Source of the DNA: Paludibacter sp.
GTDB lineage: Bacteria > Bacteroidota > Bacteroidia > Bacteroidales > Paludibacteraceae
Assembly (NCBI RefSeq): GCF_009712605.1
Contig: NZ_WASO01000008.1
Coordinates: forward strand, 115,096-179,095
Direction of reading: 5' to 3'
DNA length: 64,000 nucleotides
This document shows, piece after piece, positions 4,624-26,084 of this stretch (positions within the stretch are counted from its first letter, which is position 1; the number at the start of each line of letters is the position of its first letter). The position numbers were made by a program, and so were the translations under genes. The notes under the pieces are model-generated. The model saw only the letters and a program-made list of their open reading frames with translations. It was not told where the DNA came from and made no database searches.

Positions 4624-5340
4624 ATGTCGAAAAAGAAGAAAGTACTGATCGTCACACGACGTGAATTACGAAAAAACAAACTAATAAACTGGGTATCTGA
4701 AATATACCTTCAAATATTAGCACAGGGAGGTGTAATGCCCATCCTTGTACCTATTTCACAGGGCACCATTGCCAACCTTCCCGATTATCTCGAAGATTAT
4801 GACGGGCTATTAATGTCGGAAGGTGGCGATATTAGTCCGGCGTATTATAATGAGTCGTACAGCGTGAGCAAGCTGGACGAATACGATCCGATTAAAGACG
4901 AAATAGAAATAGCTTGTTGTCGCCATGCCATGGAACACGACAAACCAATTCTTGGCTTCTGCCGTGGCATGCACATGATTAACGTGGCTTTCGGTGGCAG
5001 CCTGCATCTTGATGTACACGAAGTGAACAAACGCAGCGTTGTCCATATCGACTATGACCATTACGACACGCATCGCCACCCGATTTCCATTTTTGAAAAC
5101 ACTCCACTGATGAATTGGTACAAACAAAAAGACCTTTTGGTAAACACTTACCATCACCAGGGCATTAAAAAACTGGCACCAGAACTGATCGCCATGGCAC
5201 AGGCACCCGACGGATTGATCGAAGGAATCTATCATCCGAAACACAAATTTGTGGTGGGTTTGCAATTTCACCCCGAACGCATGTATCAGGAACACCCGGG
5301 CAACAAACTGGTATTCAAATCATTTATAGATTCATTGTAA
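4624..5340 (+). CDS. class I glutamine amidotransferase / gamma-glutamyl hydrolase (peptidase C26)
   Basis: This 238-aa protein has the C26/PuuD-like fold. The nucleophile is Cys113 in GFCRGMHMIN, and the His and Glu of the triad are at about 216 and 218 in QFHPERM. The oxyanion-loop region SEGGDISP is typical of gamma-glutamyl-gamma-aminobutyrate hydrolases. It probably cleaves a gamma-glutamyl amide or moves ammonia from glutamine in the cytosol. It lies 66 nt after the aminotransferase and 36 nt before the HAD gene, so the three probably share a pathway. The family call is firm; the substrate is not. Confidence 0.85.
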   Translation: MSKKKKVLIVTRRELRKNKLINWVSEIYLQILAQGGVMPILVPISQGTIANLPDYLEDYDGLLMSEGGDISPAYYNESYSVSKLDEYDPIKDEIEIACCRHAMEHDKPILGFCRGMHMINVAFGGSLHLDVHEVNKRSVVHIDYDHYDTHRHPISIFENTPLMNWYKQKDLLVNTYHHQGIKKLAPELIAMAQAPDGLIEGIYHPKHKFVVGLQFHPERMYQEHPGNKLVFKSFIDSL

Positions 5341-5376
5341 CAACTCACATTTTATAATTCATAATTCACAATCACT

Positions 5377-6225
5377 ATGATGGGACTTGACGATTTTAAG
5401 GACGTTGCCTTGAAGTACAAGGTAATTTTTTTCGACGCTTACGGCGTATTGAAAAACTACAAGGGTATGTTACCTGGAGTGAAGGAGATGTTCCACTTTT
5501 TGCAGGAAAACAACATCGCTTTCTACATTCTGACCAACGATGCCTCTCGTAGCCCCGAACTACTGGCAAAATCATATATTGATGCCGGTATTGTGGAAGT
5601 CAACGAAAGCAAAATTATTTCGTCAGGCATGTTGGCCCGCGAATATATCCAAAACAAAGTGCAAAGAGGACGTATTGCTTATCTGGGAACCGAAGCTTCT
5701 GCCCATTACATCGAAAACGAAGGCCTCAACACCATCTCGATTAAAGACGTAGACCTCGAAAACTACATAGACATCAGCGCATTAGTACTGCTCGACGATG
5801 AAGGCTTCGACTGGAATGTCGATTTAATCAAGGCGCTTAACCTGATCCGCAAAAAACCGATTCCTGTGATTGTGGCCAATACCGATGGTACCTATCCTGT
5901 AACCAGAAAAGATGTGGCTATTTCTGTCGGCGCTGTGGGAGACATGCTCGAAGCTCTTGCTCGTAAAACATTCATCCGCTTTGGTAAGCCGGACTCTCAG
6001 ATGTTCAGTTTTGCATTCGATTATTGCGCTAAAGAACACGACGTTACCAAAAAAGACATTCTAATGGTGGGTGACTCTCTGATTACAGACATCATTGGGG
6101 GAAACAAATTCGGAATCGATACTTGTCTTGTTCTGACCGGTAACGTTCAGCCAGACAGTTATGAGCTGATGATTCGCTCGTACGGCATTATCCCTGATTA
6201 TATTTGTGAGTCTATTGTTTTATAA
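5377..6225 (+). CDS. HAD superfamily class IIA hydrolase
   Basis: This 282-aa NagD-like HAD phosphatase has motif I FFDAYGVL (nucleophile Asp20), motif II YILTND, motif III Lys in FGKPDSQMF, and motif IV MVGDSLITDIIGGNKFGIDT. The second residue of motif I is Ala rather than the usual acidic Asp, so the general acid D+2 is Tyr (D-A-Y); this resembles the HAD-IIA hypothetical subgroup 4. It is cytosolic and probably hydrolyses a small phosphomonoester. As the last gene of the aminotransferase-amidotransferase-HAD set, it may dephosphorylate the product of the other two. Confidence 0.85.
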   Translation: MMGLDDFKDVALKYKVIFFDAYGVLKNYKGMLPGVKEMFHFLQENNIAFYILTNDASRSPELLAKSYIDAGIVEVNESKIISSGMLAREYIQNKVQRGRIAYLGTEASAHYIENEGLNTISIKDVDLENYIDISALVLLDDEGFDWNVDLIKALNLIRKKPIPVIVANTDGTYPVTRKDVAISVGAVGDMLEALARKTFIRFGKPDSQMFSFAFDYCAKEHDVTKKDILMVGDSLITDIIGGNKFGIDTCLVLTGNVQPDSYELMIRSYGIIPDYICESIVL

Positions 6226-19821: not shown

Positions 19822-20847
19822 TTAAAATCTTTTCCGGAACCAAAAGGCAACATTCACCAGCGCAATCATTACCGGCACTTCGATGAGTGGGCCAATAACA
19901 GCGGCAAAAGCTACTCCGGAGTTAATGCCAAAGATGGTAACGGCAACGGCAATAGCCAATTCAAAATCGTTACTTCCTGCCGTAAAAGCCATTGTTGTCG
20001 ATTTTTCGTATCCTTCGCCCATCCATTTGGCAACAAAAAAGGTAACAAAAAACATGAACGCAAAATAGATAGTATAAGGTATTGCCACCTTTATTACATC
20101 CATAGGTAATTCAATGATTTTTTCACCTTTTAACGAGAACATTACAAATATGGTAAATAATAAGGCTATTGGGGTCAACCACGATACTTTGGGGACAAAC
20201 TTAGAGAAATACCATTCGCTTCCTTTCCATTTACGCAATAGTATATTCGATATTAACCCTGCTACAAAAGGTATTCCGAGATAAATTAACACAGTAATTG
20301 CTATTTCTGAAATCGAAACTTCAACAACTACTCCATTTAAACCAAACAGTGGGGGCAAAAGGGTAATAAACACATAGGCATATACCGAATACATAAACAC
20401 TTGAAAAATGGCATTGAAAGCAACCAGTCCAGCAGCCAGTTCGGTATCGCCTTTGGCAAGGTCGTTCCAAACTAACACCATTGCAATACATCGGGCTAAT
20501 CCCACCAAAATAACGCCGACCATTAATCCCGGCTGATTATGCAGGAAAAGAATAGCCAAAAAGAACATGACCAACGGACCAACAATCCAGTTTTGTGTTA
20601 GCGACAAGCTTAGAAGTTTCAGATTCTTAAAAACCAAAGGTAATTTCTCGTATTTTACTTTGGCCAGTGGGGGGTACATCATAAGAATCAGCCCGATGGC
20701 AATAGGAATATTGGTAGTACCTGAACTCAAAGAGTTCCAGAAACCTGAAATTTTAGGGAACCCAAAGCCTGTGACAATCCCGGCAAACATGACCAGGAAT
20801 ATCCATAATGTAAGGTAGCGGTCGAAAAATTTTAGTTTTGTATTCAT
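19822..20847 (-). CDS. acr3: arsenite efflux transporter ACR3
   Basis: This 341-aa inner-membrane exporter of arsenite is of the ACR3 (bile-acid/arsenite transporter) type. About ten hydrophobic segments are visible. Landmarks are [47 protein letters not shown], which includes the conserved Cys of the transport site, and [44 protein letters not shown]. It works downstream of ArsC, which makes arsenite from arsenate. I chose [11 protein letters not shown] as the start (20847) over a Met six codons upstream. It lies 7 nt after arsN2. Confidence 0.95.
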
Positions 20848-20854
20848 ATTATTA

Positions 20855-21292
20855 TCAAATATCAAGTTTCATTACAATTGCAGATACAGGGCAGAGCGAT
20901 GCAAACTCGGTGGTAGCTCCAATTGCTTCGGGCACCTCATCGCGTCCGATACGTTGCCAGTTCATTCTGTCAAAATATTTATCGGCGGTAGTCGTTAGCA
21001 GGAAAAGATGAGTGATTCCCTTTTGTTTCGATTGGGTAACAGCTTCGCGATATAAACGCTCGCCTATTTGCTGACTACGGAAATTTGCATCAACCGCAAA
21101 CGAACGCAGCAAAGCGCTATTGCCGAACACTTCAAGTGCAATCGTCCCGATCACTGTCCGATCGTGCAGTGCAACTAGAAAGAGTTGTTTGTTCAGATCG
21201 ATATCGCTGGCTGGCAATTGACTCACTTCGAGCAAAGCGTTAATCTGTGGCAGATCATCTAACGCTGCCTCTTTGATTTTCAATGTATTCAT
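20855..21292 (-). CDS. arsN2: arsenic-operon N-acetyltransferase ArsN2
   Basis: This 145-aa GNAT-fold protein matches the ArsN2 group found with acr3 and ars[59 protein letters not shown] (acetyl-CoA loop) and [26 protein letters not shown] are its usual segments. The biochemical role is not settled. A longer frame runs up to 21385, but its extra 31 codons lie in the palindromic repeat, so ATG 21292 is chosen. The 212-nt gap to hgcB contains that repeat. Confidence 0.85.
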
Positions 21293-21318: not shown

Positions 21319-21452
21319 TTGCAAAGACCTCTCCTCCTAGCCTCCTCTCCCAAGGAGAGGAGGAACACGACAGTAACAATATCAAGAAGATCTCATTTCG
21401 CTAAGGCAAAGCCTCTCTCTCTGAGAGAGGGGTTGGGGAGAGGTCTGATGTT
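21319..21452. repeat. MITE-like palindromic element, copy 2, inside the ars-hgc operon
   Basis: It shares ends with 7291-7465 (TTTGCAAAGACCTCTCC... and ...GGGGAGAGGTCTGATG) and the same internal palindromes. It sits between hgcB and arsN2, the only large gap in the operon, and may uncouple or attenuate transcription of arsN2-acr3. Confidence 0.7.
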
Positions 21453-21504: not shown

Positions 21505-21804
21505 TCAACAACAAACTTTGGTTCCGGCAGAACAATCACACGAAGGTTCGGTCCCTCTCAATATTCCGTTCAGAATGCCAGCGGCGCACCCTACCCCGGC
21601 CTTGACTGTGATAGCACCGAAACGACAGTTGTTGGAACAGGCTCCGCACTCCATGCAATCATTGATATCCACAATGCACGCTTTGCCATTCACCATCTCA
21701 AAAACCGCGTGAGGACATACGATGGTACACATACCACATCCGGTACATAAATCCGGGTTGAGTTTCAGCGTAACCACGTTCTTCAAATATTGTAACGTCT
21801 TCAT
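21505..21804 (-). CDS. hgcB: mercury-methylation ferredoxin HgcB
   Basis: This 99-aa protein supplies electrons for mercury methylation by reducing the corrinoid of HgcA. Two 4Fe-4S motifs are complete: Cys20, 23, 26, 30 (CTGCGMCTIVCP) and Cys50, 53, 56, 60 (CMECGACSNNC). The isolated Cys73 in GVGCAAG and the C-terminal vicinal pair Cys98-Cys99 are HgcB hallmarks, thought to carry Hg(II). Two more Cys (89, 91) precede the pair. The second cluster ends in CR rather than CP. The start at 21804 lies 1 nt after the hgcA stop (TGA-T-ATG), indicating translational coupling. A longer frame from 21858 is rejected, as it overlaps hgcA. Confidence 0.95.
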   Translation of the reverse strand: MKTLQYLKNVVTLKLNPDLCTGCGMCTIVCPHAVFEMVNGKACIVDINDCMECGACSNNCRFGAITVKAGVGCAAGILNGILRGTEPSCDCSAGTKVCC

Positions 21805-21805
21805 A

Positions 21806-22837
21806 TCATAGCAGTTTTGAAAGAATGAAAAGCAAAAATCCTGACGCGATAGTTCCAATCTGAATGGGAATGGCCCATTTCATCTCTTTTTGTACTCCCG
21901 ATAGCGAGGTAAAAGTGGATGAACCGGTGAAATTCATCGCCATAAACGAAGAGACGCTCAGGCTAATCAGTCCGATGGCAATAGCTTCAGGCAATGCGGG
22001 ATGCAGCAACACTATCCACAACAAGGAGGTAAGTACCCCCCCAAAAGTACCTTTCAGGGCAAACGGACGAAAAGGCACCCACGGCAAAAAGAGCGGCGTA
22101 AGCACGATGCCTGCAACATATGCACTGAAGATTGTGATCAGCGGAAAGGCCGATTCACTTACCATTTTACCGAACAACAAGCCGGTACGATCGAGTCCTG
22201 CAATCACAAAAACAGACGCCAAAATGGCCAGCAGTTTATACTTTTCGTACATAAAATCGACCGGAATCAGTTTAGCCCGCTCTTTCATGGGAAACCTAAC
22301 ACGCCGCATTTCGGGAGTCGCCTTGTATCCGGCATCAATAAACGGTTTGATATCTTTGGCCAATACCGGTCCAAAGGTAACCTTGAAACCGGACAGCTCC
22401 TTGACTTTATGAGCCGCCACCCCGCTTGCCGACAGTTGCGGTGCAATGATGCGACGATGCTGCACCACACTCTCCAATGATGCCGCTTTAATACCGCGTA
22501 CCACTACATCTGTGCCAAAATTTCCTTTTCCGGCGGCGCACCACACATTAACGCCCTTCGTATCGACCACCAAAATCCAGAGATTCCTACCACCAAGTTC
22601 TTTGCGTAGCATGTCGAAACTCAGTTTGTAATTGGCAGAGAGCAGCACATCCGACTGGCTGTCGGGATTGCCGACCTTGTAAAGTCCAGGGGTGACCTTG
22701 TACTCATTGCGCCCAATGCCAAAGCGGACCTTTAATGCTCCCAGCTTGTCAACAAGTGTCAACTGTTCGGATACGCTGGGAATACGGGCTGTCAACAGTC
22801 CGAGGTCTTTCAGATTTACAGAAGCTGCGATACTCAT
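21806..22837 (-). CDS. hgcA: mercury-methylating corrinoid protein HgcA
   Basis: This 343-aa protein transfers a methyl group from its corrinoid to Hg(II), forming methylmercury. The cytosolic corrinoid-binding domain (about 60-180) holds the diagnostic cap-helix motif NVWCAAGK at residues 97-104; Cys100 is the lower cobalt ligand. Five membrane segments follow at about 201-221, 231-251, 264-280, 284-302 and 322-341, with the conserved NFTGSSTFTSLSGVQKEM (302-319) between the last two. Length and layout match known HgcA. The ATG overlaps the arsC stop by 4 nt (ATGA), so it is translationally coupled to arsenate reductase. hgcB follows directly. Confidence 0.97.
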   Translation of the reverse strand: MSIAASVNLKDLGLLTARIPSVSEQLTLVDKLGALKVRFGIGRNEYKVTPGLYKVGNPDSQSDVLLSANYKLSFDMLRKELGGRNLWILVVDTKGVNVWCAAGKGNFGTDVVVRGIKAASLESVVQHRRIIAPQLSASGVAAHKVKELSGFKVTFGPVLAKDIKPFIDAGYKATPEMRRVRFPMKERAKLIPVDFMYEKYKLLAILASVFVIAGLDRTGLLFGKMVSESAFPLITIFSAYVAGIVLTPLFLPWVPFRPFALKGTFGGVLTSLLWIVLLHPALPEAIAIGLISLSVSSFMAMNFTGSSTFTSLSGVQKEMKWAIPIQIGTIASGFLLFILSKLL

Positions 22838-23256
22838 TTTCCTTTGATATTCTCTACGTAAAATTTATAAAAACCCTCTTTGATTTCGTCGCGCACCCGA
22901 AGAAATTCGCTCCAAATAAAATCGTCGCTACCGACGGCGTGACTCGGATCGTCGAACCCGATATGCAAACGATGCTTTACCTTGCCGAAAAAAGCCGGAC
23001 AACTCTCGTTGGCTCCACCGCAAACGGTTATCACGTAATCCCACTCTTCGTTGAGATACTTCTCCACCGAATCGGAGGTGTGATGACTGATATCGATACC
23101 GGCTTCGCGCATCACGGCAACCGCTTTTTCGTTGAGTTTGCCGCTTGCCTGCGTTCCTGCCGAGCAAACTGTGATGTTCGGATCAAAAGATTGTAACCAA
23201 CCGTGAGCCATCTGACTACGGCAACTGTTTCCGGTGCATAAAATAAGAACTTTCAT
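22834..23256 (-). CDS. arsC: arsenate reductase, thioredoxin-coupled
   Basis: This 140-aa enzyme reduces arsenate to arsenite in the cytosol. It is of the low-molecular-weight phosphatase fold: P-loop CTGNSCRS with nucleophile Cys7 and Arg13, then the relay pair Cys79 and Cys86 (TVCGGANESCP), equivalent to the Cys10/82/89 set of the staphylococcal pI258 enzyme. HIGFDDPSHA supplies the Asp general acid. It is 33 nt after the permease gene and overlaps hgcA by 4 nt. Confidence 0.96.
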   Translation of the reverse strand: MKVLILCTGNSCRSQMAHGWLQSFDPNITVCSAGTQASGKLNEKAVAVMREAGIDISHHTSDSVEKYLNEEWDYVITVCGGANESCPAFFGKVKHRLHIGFDDPSHAVGSDDFIWSEFLRVRDEIKEGFYKFYVENIKGK

Positions 23257-23289: not shown

Positions 23290-24309
23290 TTACATAATAA
23301 AATTGAACAGAAATCCCACCAGCATAATTCCCGTTGCCACAATAGCAGCGAACGTCAAAATAAGAGGCAATTTCAAAACCTTTTTAAGGATAATCATTTC
23401 GGGCAACGAGAGGGCAATGACAGACATCATAAAGGCCAGTGCCGTGCCTAAGGCGGCTCCTTTTTCGATGAGAACGGAAACAATAGGCACGATACCTGCG
23501 GCATTCGAATAGAGCGGCACACCGATCAATACCGACAATGGTACAGCATACCACACATCTTTTCCCATCAGCGAGGCCATAAACTCGGCGGGAACATACC
23601 CGTGCACTCCGGCACCGACCGCGATACCCAACGCCACATAAAGCCACACCTTACTCACAATCTCTCTTACTGCTGTCAGTCCCATTTCAATTCGCTGCGA
23701 AAAAGATATTTTCTCGTCTTCAGTCTCCCCTTTTTCAAAATGAGTGGCATAAACCCACTCTTCCACCCACTTTTCAAGTCGCAGTCGGCCAATAATCCAT
23801 CCGGCCACAATCGCAATAACCAGACCTGTAGAGATGTAGATCAATACCGTGTTCCATCCGAACATACCATAAAGCAGCACAACAGCCACTTCGTTAATCA
23901 TCGGCGCGGCAATCAGAAATGAGAAGGTGATACCCAAAGGCACTCCCGATTCCACAAAGCCCAGGAACAAAGGGATAGCCGAACAGGAACAAAAAGGCGT
24001 AACGATGCCCAGCATGGCTGCCATCACGTTACCGACAAAGGTATTTTTGCCTTCAAGTGCTTTGCGTGTTCGCTCGGGTGTAAAGAAGCTACGCACAATC
24101 CCCACAAAGAAAATGATGAGCACCAGCAATAGCAACACTTTGGGAAATTCGAATACAAAAAAGCGGAGCGCTTCGGTCAACGGAGCTCCGGCCGATAAGC
24201 CCGGAAATAATCCAACCAACCCGTCGGCAAAACGTTGAAGATTACTATAGAGGAGATACCAAACCGGCAACGCCAATAATGTCCAGCCAATTTTTCTGTT
24301 CCACTTCAT
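23290..24309 (-). CDS. ArsP-like permease (DUF318/UPF0718 family)
   Basis: This 339-aa inner-membrane protein has about eight to ten hydrophobic segments. The family core GIVTPFCSCSAIPLFLGFVESGVPLGITFSFLIAAPMINE is present, as is the second half-repeat PLYSNAAGIVPIVSVLIEKGAALGTALAFMMSVIALSLPEMIIL. ArsP, the exporter of trivalent organoarsenicals, and SO_0444-type metal exporters are in this family and share the CSC motif. Within this operon an organoarsenical or soft-metal export role is likely. The exact substrate cannot be read from sequence. Confidence 0.85.
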   Translation of the reverse strand: MKWNRKIGWTLLALPVWYLLYSNLQRFADGLVGLFPGLSAGAPLTEALRFFVFEFPKVLLLLVLIIFFVGIVRSFFTPERTRKALEGKNTFVGNVMAAMLGIVTPFCSCSAIPLFLGFVESGVPLGITFSFLIAAPMINEVAVVLLYGMFGWNTVLIYISTGLVIAIVAGWIIGRLRLEKWVEEWVYATHFEKGETEDEKISFSQRIEMGLTAVREIVSKVWLYVALGIAVGAGVHGYVPAEFMASLMGKDVWYAVPLSVLIGVPLYSNAAGIVPIVSVLIEKGAALGTALAFMMSVIALSLPEMIILKKVLKLPLILTFAAIVATGIMLVGFLFNFIM

Positions 24310-24324
24310 ACAATTTCTATCTGT

Positions 24325-25029
24325 TTATTTAAAGACAAACAAAATAAGCATATAATAAATCCCTACCACAATAAACACAACCGAGACAACTCTTCGGAAC
24401 CATAATTCAAAGATTTTTATCTTGTTATAAACAGAACCCACATTGCCCACAGCAAAAGCAAGCAACCAGGCAAACAAAATAACAGGCAAACCTTTAGCAA
24501 CGGCAAAAACCAACGGTAAGTATAACCCGGAAGCGCGTGAAATCGTCATGGGAATCAGCATGGCAAAGTAGAGAACTCCGCTATAAGGGCAAAACGCCAA
24601 AGCAAATACAATCCCCAAAAGAAGCGAGCTCCAGAGACTTCCGTTTTTGCGTTCTCCTATTTTGTCGGTCAGTTTATGTAAGCCGGGAAACTTAACCGAA
24701 ATCACCCCAAGCATCACCAGTCCGATCACGATCAACAGAGGACCGAGCACTTTCTCGCCCCACCCCTGAAAAAAGAGCGACACGTTCATTTTGCTGGCTC
24801 CGAAGTAGATGATTAGCGCCAGACCGACATAACTGACTGCCCGTCCAAGAGTGTAAATCAGACCATTGTAAAATACCCTTCGGCGATCGGTCAGATCGCG
24901 ACTGATAAATCCGATGGCCGTGATGTTGGTTGCCAGCGGGCAAGGACTGATGGCGGTCATCAGCCCCAACACAAACGCCGTCAGAAAGCCGTATTGAGAG
25001 TTATCCAGTATACCTTGGAAAAAATCCAT
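24325..25029 (-). CDS. arsG: ArsG-type aromatic arsenical efflux permease (CcdA/DsbD-like)
   Basis: This 234-aa membrane protein has about six helices and is related to CcdA/DsbD transmembrane domains. Paired motifs are AISPCPLATN (about 28-37) and FALAFCPYSGVLYFAMLIP (about 141-159), each with one Cys-Pro, as in CcdA. In the arsEFG system known from Shewanella, ArsG exports aromatic aminoarsenicals after ArsE/ArsF act on nitro groups. The immediate arsF and arsE neighbours (7-nt gap, then 4-nt overlap) support this over a cytochrome c biogenesis role. Confidence 0.8.
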   Translation of the reverse strand: MDFFQGILDNSQYGFLTAFVLGLMTAISPCPLATNITAIGFISRDLTDRRRVFYNGLIYTLGRAVSYVGLALIIYFGASKMNVSLFFQGWGEKVLGPLLIVIGLVMLGVISVKFPGLHKLTDKIGERKNGSLWSSLLLGIVFALAFCPYSGVLYFAMLIPMTISRASGLYLPLVFAVAKGLPVILFAWLLAFAVGNVGSVYNKIKIFELWFRRVVSVVFIVVGIYYMLILFVFK

Positions 25030-25035
25030 AATGCA

Positions 25036-25464
25036 TTAACGAATAAGCGGATCAATGATTTTTTTGAGCTCGGCCTTCAGTTTGTCCGGATTGTTTCGGG
25101 CATACATAAAACCCTGATCGGTCAGATCGAAGCGCTTGTTGCCACTAATCACCAACAACGCCTGACCTTCGGCTTTACAGCGCGCAGCCATAGCCTTACT
25201 TGCTTTATCATCCAAATTGAACGATTTGAAAACAATGACTCCCTGCTTCGATTGTGCAGGATAAAGCGCCACAACGGCCTTCTGCGATTCGGTTTCAACC
25301 GCCTGGCAAGTAACACAGCGACGGGTAAAATGGAAGTAATAAACCTCAACTTTAGTCTGTTTTACAGACGAAACCGGAGCTGAAACGCCTTTTTTTGCAG
25401 GTTGACTCCCGACAAAAGAGGCTGTCAAAAGCATAATCAATGAGAATAGGAGTGTTCGTTTCAT
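25036..25464 (-). CDS. arsF: ArsF-family secreted thioredoxin-like protein
   Basis: This 142-aa protein has an N-terminal signal segment (to about residue 20) and a thioredoxin-like domain. The signature YYFHFTRRCVTCQAVE contains the CxxC pair (about 50 and 53). ASKAMAARCKAEGQALLVI and the C-terminal KLKAELKKIID fit the ArsF family, described as a subunit of a nitroaryl-arsenical reducing system. It probably faces the periplasm or is membrane-anchored. It overlaps arsE by 4 nt. Confidence 0.78.
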   Translation of the reverse strand: MKRTLLFSLIMLLTASFVGSQPAKKGVSAPVSSVKQTKVEVYYFHFTRRCVTCQAVETESQKAVVALYPAQSKQGVIVFKSFNLDDKASKAMAARCKAEGQALLVISGNKRFDLTDQGFMYARNNPDKLKAELKKIIDPLIR

Positions 25465-25709
25465 ATCAGAAAAATTTTATTGGTTAATATCTGCTTCAGC
25501 TCATCGTTGGACGGCACACGTCCCTTTACCACCACTTTCCCATCGACAACCAATGCCGGAGTAGACATTACATTGAATTTCATGATTTCCATGATATCTT
25601 CCACTTTGGTGACCTCGGCATCGATGCCGTTTTGAGCCACTACTTCGCGCACTGCTTTTTCAAGCGATTTACATTTGGCGCATCCGGTTCCTAATACTTG
25701 AATTTTCAT
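25461..25709 (-). CDS. arsE: ArsE-like small thioredoxin (TM0996/MTH895 family)
   Basis: This 82-aa cytosolic glutaredoxin-like protein has the redox motif GTGCAKCKSLEKAV (CxxC at about 9 and 12), the thioredoxin cis-Pro loop MSTPALVVDGKVVVKGRVPS and the typical C-terminal helix SNDELKQIL. In arsEFG clusters the equivalent protein is called ArsE; outside that context it would be called a TM0996/MTH895 thioredoxin. It could also serve ArsC as a reductant. It is 18 nt after arsR. Confidence 0.8.
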   Translation of the reverse strand: MKIQVLGTGCAKCKSLEKAVREVVAQNGIDAEVTKVEDIMEIMKFNVMSTPALVVDGKVVVKGRVPSNDELKQILTNKIFLI

Positions 25710-25727: not shown

Positions 25728-26060
25728 TTAGTCGCAACAAAGATCTTTTTCTTTTAATGAAGCAAAGAATGTGTTGAAATACACCTGCGCTTTTGCCCAG
25801 TTCTCCCGATGAATGCAGTATTTCACCTTGGGGACTTCGATGGTTCCGGTAATAAGTCCGGACTCTTTCAACTCTTTCAGATGTTGAGAAACGGTAGCCT
25901 TGGCAATCGGCAGTTCATTGTTGATATCGCCAAAATAGCAACTGTCGAGGTTGGCTAAAAAGCTAAGAATGGCAATACGTGCCGGGTGCCCCATCGCTTT
26001 GGCAAAGCGGGCAAGTTGCTCATTATCTATCGCATACTCTTGTTTTTCGCAGCAATTCAT
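25728..26060 (-). CDS. arsR: ArsR-family metalloregulator
   Basis: This 110-aa winged-helix repressor has ARFAKAMGHPARIAILSFL, then LPIAKATVSQHLKELKESGLI (recognition helix). Metal-site candidates are Cys in NLDSCYFGD, the N-terminal MNCCEK and the C-terminal LCCD; the usual ELCVCDL site is absent, so the arsenic site is of another type. It heads the operon and presumably represses it through the palindrome at 26085-26106. I prefer ATG 26060 because the other candidate at 26078 leaves almost no leader after the -7 box. Confidence 0.93.
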   Translation of the reverse strand: MNCCEKQEYAIDNEQLARFAKAMGHPARIAILSFLANLDSCYFGDINNELPIAKATVSQHLKELKESGLITGTIEVPKVKYCIHRENWAKAQVYFNTFFASLKEKDLCCD

Positions 26061-26084
26061 AGTGTAAATTATTTTCATTGTTCG

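Follow-up and report, generated by a model that had tools for sequence, protein, structure and literature searches.

An hgcAB gene pair in the arsM position of an arsenic resistance operon of Paludibacter sp.

Introduction

It has long been an open question why cells retain hgcA and hgcB, whose products form methylmercury. Methylcobalamin bound to HgcA with a cysteine as lower ligand favours transfer of a methyl carbanion to Hg(II), while HgcB reduces the cobalt and binds the metal via a cysteine pair. The cap-helix motif of HgcA is defined as N(V/I)WCA(A/G)GK, with the cysteine lying within it. To our knowledge, published HgcAB activity concerns mercury alone.

Among the described systems, the arsR-hgcA-hgcB cluster of Pseudodesulfovibrio mercurii ND132 is close to the locus studied here. 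An hgcAB mutant of this strain reportedly shows raised sensitivity to As(V), and the ND132 regulator is said (Gionfriddo 2023) to be akin to repressors that respond to S-adenosylhomocysteine (SAH). According to the accessible part of PMC10349881, hgcAB of ND132 is under ArsR control and responds to arsenic.

Linkage of hgcAB to arsenic resistance (ars) genes has been published previously. In the accessible part of McDaniel et al. (2020; PMC7438021), hgcAB is flanked by acr3 and arsC, with arsM lying close by (their Fig. 6). As far as the available portions of two other papers go, the linkage is not general, since an ars gene was present on just 4 of 35 hgcAB contigs in PMC10349881, and in PMC12953829 nearly all hgcA-positive MAGs had ars genes, including arsM, with arsR not close to hgcAB. 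In the portion available of PMC8017159, the Paludibacteraceae are treated as lacking hgcAB, though the family correlated with methylation. For arsM itself, the accessible part of PMC11653729 describes methylarsenite as the product of the anaerobic enzyme and ArsP as its exporter.

Results and Discussion

Identity of the hgcA-hgcB pair

The DNA analyzed was a stretch of 64,000 nucleotides from a contig of Paludibacter sp. (the window), and the assembly (3.70 Mb in 15 contigs) was 97.8% complete. It gave no 16S rRNA match, and genomes of the same genus served to place the host. HgcA and HgcB both scored above the curated cut-offs of their profiles (table 1), excluding chance matches and confirming that this Bacteroidota genome carries a genuine hgcAB pair, as a preliminary description of this DNA had proposed. 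Neither frame contained internal stops, and hgcB started 1 bp past the end of hgcA.

In HgcA, NVWCAAGK was located at residues 97–104, with C100 inside it, in agreement with the motif definition, and the same letters were found in 91 of 96 HgcA rows. A corrinoid-binding domain of the CFeSP fold was followed by a five-helix membrane domain, with five hydrophobic segments starting at residues 202, 233, 260, 281 and 322. The predicted HgcA model (pLDDT 88.7), which was built from a 56-row alignment and superseded one from a 13-row alignment (pLDDT 74.4), had helices at all five segments and resembled both the deposited HgcAB model 9a0b and CFeSP. HgcB, whose gene adjoins hgcA, contained the two 4Fe-4S motifs CTGCGMCTIVC (from residue 20) and CMECGACSNNC (from residue 50), Cys73, and Cys98-Cys99 at the C terminus. 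The motif, the C-terminal membrane segments and the HgcB cysteines of the preliminary description were thus all recovered, as was its view that HgcA is not a corrinoid subunit of CO dehydrogenase: the model for the CFeSP gamma subunit (CdhE type, NF003195) gave 67.9 bits against a cut-off of 306. Counted from the alignment, Thr374 of that subunit (2ycl, 2h9a) takes the place of C100, and the membrane domain is an extra feature of HgcA.

Identity as an HgcAB-like fusion was also rejected (NF043039, 191.9 bits, cut-off 285), the two genes being separate. As to membership in ArsM, the only Pfam match of HgcA was to CdhD, and no NCBIfam ArsM model matched at E 0.001; HgcA is therefore not an ArsM family member, though it could work in an ArsM-like way. 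A mobile or viral setting was rejected because a single-protein query of viral_contigs gave no relative of the window HgcA.

The window pair is an ordinary, intact hgcAB, and it is its location that is informative. A host capable of methylmercury production, as proposed earlier, is a reasonable prediction. The description of Bacteroidota as minor and little-studied methylators is doubtful, given that the accessible part of PMC7438021 assigns the top hgcA expression in a thawing fen to Bacteroidetes and names three Bacteroidetes strains with hgcA, in Paludibacteraceae and Marinilabiliaceae.

Organization of the ars run

Table 1. Features of the ars run containing hgcAB, with window positions and profile scores (bits).
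Feature	Position	Strand	Product or description	Profile match	Score	Cut-off
arsR	25728..26078	-	ArsR/SmtB-type repressor, heads the run	PF01022	44.3	22
arsE	25461..25709	-	small thioredoxin-like protein	TIGR00412	125.4	62
arsF	25036..25464	-	ArsF family	NF040494	101.3	60
arsG	24325..25029	-	ArsG-family membrane protein, DsbD/CcdA type	NF040495	309.4	200
ArsP_1-family permease	23290..24309	-	possible exporter of methylated metal(loid)	PF03773 (ArsP_1)	238	
arsC	22834..23256	-	arsenate reductase of low-molecular-weight-phosphatase type; overlaps hgcA by 4 bp	PF01451	66.4	
hgcA	21806..22837	-	343 aa; corrinoid protein with Cys100 and five-helix membrane domain	NF040863	407.5	275
hgcB	21505..21804	-	99 aa from ATG; 4Fe-4S ferredoxin, two clusters	NF040864	115.2	99
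Inverted repeats in hgcB-arsN2 spacer	21325..21446		possible terminator or insertion scar			
arsN2	20855..21292	-	arsenic-resistance N-acetyltransferase	NF040501	146.4	125
acr3	19822..20847	-	arsenite efflux transporter	TIGR00832	417.2	282.8

The preliminary description overlooked the arsenic gene cluster in which the pair is set, and this setting changes its likely purpose. On one strand, the genes are ordered arsR-arsE-arsF-arsG-permease-arsC-hgcA-hgcB, followed by arsN2-acr3. The run thus combines arsR, an arsenate reductase gene and an arsenite efflux gene, as in an ars operon, with ArsC and ArsR named from Pfam and their best matches, as both scored below the NCBIfam cut-offs (ArsC 128.1 bits with TIGR02691, cut-off 174.3; ArsR 54.6 bits with NF033788, barely below its cut-off of 55). 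ArsR has cysteine pairs close to both termini (C9-C10 and C114-C115). For the permease, the nearest NCBIfam models (SaoE, 134.8 bits; SO_0444, 100.3 bits) were far under cut-off, so that its family leaves the substrate unfixed. The acr3 gene was the single match in the window genome.

From arsR to hgcB the gaps were 18, -4, 6, 15, 33, -4 and 1 bp (maximum 33 bp), and from this spacing we infer that these eight genes form one transcript. The spacer between hgcB and arsN2 was 212 bp long, with terminator-like consensus matches on both strands at 21412-21443, and arsN2 and acr3 were 7 bp apart. The region had 18 promoter-like matches (shuffled sequences, 11.5 +/- 3.5), which lack the specificity needed to locate a promoter.

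Acr3 of the window shares 66% identity with Acr3 of the congener G005, against 87–98% for the products from ArsR to ArsC, and is nearer (84%) to Acr3 of an operon that carries arsM (L244). The downstream end of the window operon seems to have been exchanged.

The gene content also bears on a role of HgcAB in one-carbon or cobalamin metabolism, where the arsenic linkage would reflect sensing of SAH, and so of the methionine cycle, by regulators of the ArsR/SahR-like type. The reported kinship of the ND132 regulator with SAH-responsive repressors favours this explanation. Against it, the pair is surrounded by ars genes, among them those for arsenate reduction and arsenite efflux, and not by methionine genes; we consider it highly improbable. 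The window genome encodes MetH, a methyl-folate/cobalamin enzyme (1600 bits), which we count in favour of the function proposed below. At E 0.001 the HgcA model matched no other protein of this genome; since the CFeSP of genome G364 reaches about 60 bits with this model, CFeSP would seem to be absent from the window genome.

Linkage of hgcAB to ars genes

A locus counted as ars-linked if arsC or acr3 lay within 5 kb of hgcA, or arsG up to 9 kb away, on the strand of hgcA. Of 393 genomes drawn across the order, 24 had hgcA above the cut-off, and 15 of these, the window included, were ars-linked. No arsC, acr3 or arsG was found near the other nine, four of which lie beside a contig end.

A larger set of context loci (L035–L142, n=108) was reduced to 97 by removing ten duplicates and L062, a CFeSP locus with no HgcA above 100 bits; an HgcAB-like fusion that is not HgcA (L061) still stands among them, counted within the 67 Bacteroidota as a locus without ars genes. 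Linkage was found in 45 of the 67 loci labelled Bacteroidota versus 9 of the 30 others, in a sample that is biased with respect to HgcA overall because 80 loci were the best 80 of 286 matches to a Bacteroidota alignment. Two loci counted outside Bacteroidota probably belong inside (L119, from G075, and L065), and moving them changes the numbers to 47 of 69 versus 7 of 28. The full arrangement, with arsC upstream and acr3 downstream of hgcA, was present in 27 of 67 Bacteroidota-labelled loci and in 3 of 30 others.

In a quick tree of 96 HgcA sequences, which omitted L059 and L061, the window HgcA grouped with 13 other rows (SH-aLRT 100, stem 0.55), and all 14 members of this clade are near ars genes. 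Across the whole tree the linkage label changed 17 times (raw count). The clade had 13 specific columns, among them 54, 188, 216 and 232; only 54 and 188 precede residue 215, and none lies inside the Cys motif.

One of the loci mentioned above, L065 (JAENWI010000026.1), was binned as Peptostreptococcaceae. It has an arsC-hgcA-hgcB-acr3 run, and its HgcA is 67% identical to that of the window and within its clade. Misbinning of a Bacteroidota contig, or else a recent transfer, is the likely explanation.

Exchange of hgcAB and arsM between arsC and acr3

The slot between arsC and acr3 that holds hgcAB in the window holds arsM, the arsenite methyltransferase gene, in some relatives. HgcA was found in three of eight genomes of the window's genus, the window included. 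In this genus, the slot contains hgcAB in G000 (the window genome), G005 and G006, arsM in G003 (arsC-arsM-acr3; ArsM 316.4 bits, cut-off 263), and nothing in G007 and G001 (both arsR-arsC-acr3) or G004 (arsC-acr3). The flanking genes match: compared with G003 and G007, G005 was 83 and 84% identical in ArsC, and 78 and 81% in Acr3. No hgcA match was obtained in the family member G008, whose locus reads arsR-arsC-arsN2-gshF-acr3, with a gshF-type gene.

The same position of arsM was seen beyond the genus. Among the best 30 ArsM loci of the order draw, viewed with flanks of about 1.5 kb, 19 had arsC upstream and 21 had acr3 downstream, with 17 showing both. Larger ArsM loci (n=22), hand-picked and partly from genera or families having hgcA, contained acr3 in 18, arsC in 17, arsG in 10 and the permease in 5. 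The arsR-arsC-arsM-acr3 operons of Bacteroidales (L206, L208, L219, L244 and others) share neighbours and order with the window, with arsM replacing hgcAB. In L244 (G253), the order arsR-E-F-G-permease-C-arsM-acr3 is that of the window with arsM in the hgcAB place, and the permease, ArsC and Acr3 are 74, 83 and 84% identical to their window counterparts. The proteins in the slot are unrelated: ArsM is a SAM-dependent methyltransferase, whereas HgcA would use methylcobalamin.

A quick Acr3 tree was built from 70 rows, of which 41 were near hgcAB, 17 near arsM, 11 near neither and one near both. At least 13 changes between hgcAB and arsM were required, compared with 15.0 on average in 200 shuffles (from 10 to 17), on a tree with weak inner support and flagged long branches, in which the ArsM loci came partly from genera or families containing hgcA. 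Simple inheritance of the slot content together with acr3 was rejected, as the states were almost as mixed as shuffled labels. Two rows were labelled hgcAB by convention: G203, with its broken hgcA, and L094, whose arsM lies more than 5 kb from acr3.

The broken gene of G203 (L059, 3349-3798) lies between arsC and acr3, with a longest piece of 149 aa and no hgcB. Three other genomes of its genus (g93; G099, G295 and G363) carry arsM, and its Acr3 is sister (support 97) to that of G295. The hgcAB of G203 is apparently a pair undergoing loss.

These comparisons also bear on whether the slot simply takes up accessory genes of any kind, with hgcAB a passenger that has no functional tie to arsenic. 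The slot is otherwise empty (G007, G001, G004) or filled by arsN2 and a gshF-type gene (G008), and the divergence of acr3 between the window and G005 noted above indicates that the region recombines. Against a passenger, arsM, gshF, arsN2 and hgcAB would all suit a role in dealing with thiol-seeking toxicants, the arsC and hgcA frames overlap, and the identical order was found again in distant genomes. We regard a passenger role as improbable.

The association of hgcAB with ars genes and its acr3 and arsC flanks belong to McDaniel et al. (PMC7438021, as far as its accessible part goes); the order-wide counts, the exchange at the arsM slot, the congeners with an empty slot and the swaps on the Acr3 tree do not figure in that part. 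No report of hgcAB occupying the arsM slot was found in the literature searched, which left most subscription papers outside, and within that literature the hgcAB/arsM exchange, including the empty-slot congeners, appears to be new.

Co-occurrence of HgcA and ArsM

ArsM exceeded its cut-off (263 bits) in 103 of 386 order-draw genomes, the ArsM draw being slightly different in size from that for HgcA (393). All 24 hgcA-positive genomes were tested directly and none had ArsM above cut-off, versus 6.4 expected (hypergeometric P 4.4e-4, uncorrected for kinship). In a wider test, ArsM was again missing from all 27 hgcA-positive genomes at this cut-off, whereas one of six hgcA-negative members of the family had it (G003).

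Absolute exclusion is ruled out. Three of the 97 loci (L094, L097 and L098) carry arsM within the same run as hgcA, and two of the 23 genomes of family f42 hold both genes. In that family hgcA was found in eight genomes (seven over cut-off), ArsM in ten and both in two (G425 and G428), an overlap not significantly under chance (P 0.195); in each of its two main genera the overlap was zero (P 0.119 and 0.167). No arsC or acr3 was found in the short hgcA loci of the two genomes with both genes (L266, 2.7 kb; L267, 4.0 kb). In L267, arsR, arsE and arsF begin just upstream of hgcA on the opposite strand. The two gene types are therefore exchangeable at the slot, and their exclusion is a tendency and no rule.

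The hgcA-positive genomes were also searched for MerA, which exceeded its cut-off in none of the 27 (matches below cut-off occurred in 23), so that no standard mercury reductase is to hand. This result, which we also count in favour of the function proposed below, fits an alternative in which HgcAB methylates mercury only and has borrowed the regulation of an arsenic operon, with methylmercury leaving via the permease or passively. ArsR-type sensors and thiol chemistry answer to several soft metals, in motifs and fold the pair agrees with bona fide HgcAB, and the published activity that we know of is all on mercury. By itself, this alternative leaves unexplained both the alternation of hgcAB and arsM at one slot and the constant ars proximity of the 14-row HgcA clade. 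We consider it a real possibility, short of probable.

Proposed function

Set against these alternatives, the arrangement suggests that the window pair is the metal(loid) methyltransferase of its ars operon and replaces ArsM, a proposal for which we judge the chances to be evenly balanced. HgcAB would then serve the arsenic response as a corrinoid methyltransferase, with As(III), Hg(II) or both as substrate, and it is likely, judging from gene context, that it acts on arsenic besides, or in place of, mercury.

In the proposed mechanism, ArsR would be released in response to arsenic, or to a different thiol-seeking metal, and the run would be switched on. A folate donor would methylate the cobalamin ligated by Cys100 of HgcA, and HgcB would reduce the cobalt and supply HgcA with As(III) or Hg(II) in thiol-bound form. 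Transfer of the methyl group as a carbanion would give methylarsenite or methylmercury, thiol-bound As(III) possibly accepting the methyl group in the same way as Hg(II). The adjacent ArsP_1 permease may export the product, by analogy with the export of methylarsenite by ArsP, and Acr3 would export plain arsenite.

A more specific form of this proposal, that HgcAB constitutes a second, cobalamin-dependent route of arsenic methylation, is tentative and in our view rather unlikely. Here HgcAB would be a non-homologous replacement of ArsM that methylates thiol-bound As(III), with methylarsenite exported and methylmercury a by-product. If true, it would answer the question of the native purpose of HgcAB; no demonstration of HgcAB activity on arsenic was found in the literature searched.

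The ND132 cluster shares with the window the two proteins and an ArsR-type gene, and is reported in the accessible part of PMC10349881 to be ArsR-controlled and arsenic-responsive. The window pair differs in lying additionally among arsE, arsF, arsG, the permease, arsC, arsN2 and acr3, the likeness being drawn from the published description of ND132. Because hgcAB alternates with arsM at one place of the ars operon, in congeners with matching flanks, the native function can be tested in culturable relatives. An arsenic role would mean that, in paddies and sediments, the formation of methylmercury is tied to exposure to arsenic.

Additional observations

A membrane protein, from a protein cluster that mixes DsbD-like (weak matches) and ArsG-type members, is encoded upstream of hgcA at a distance of one or two genes in 23 of the 97 loci (e.g. 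L100:8934-9949, a Bacteroidota locus), and a small Cys-rich membrane protein was near hgcA in 16 of 97. It is possible that these proteins supply thiol electrons or deliver metal to HgcAB. In L039 (G043), HgcA has only 269 aa (4766-5572, 352 bits), its membrane domain being about 70 residues short (model positions 200-270 missing), and neither HgcB nor an ars gene was detected across this 15.5-kb locus.

In two of the loci with arsM in the hgcA run (L097:7513-8808 and L098:444-1862), ArsC and ArsM are fused in one open frame upstream of hgcAB. It was also found that 12 of the 27 hgcA-positive genomes encode, on another contig, a short ArsM-like protein (180–196 bits, below the cut-off of 263), which might methylate arsenic, a point against the proposed replacement of ArsM by HgcAB. 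In three hgcA-positive genomes examined (L176, L178 and L187), an ArsM-like methyltransferase of about 216 aa, scoring under the ArsM cut-off, lies beside a protein in which a CxxxCxxC motif of the radical-SAM type was identified by eye.
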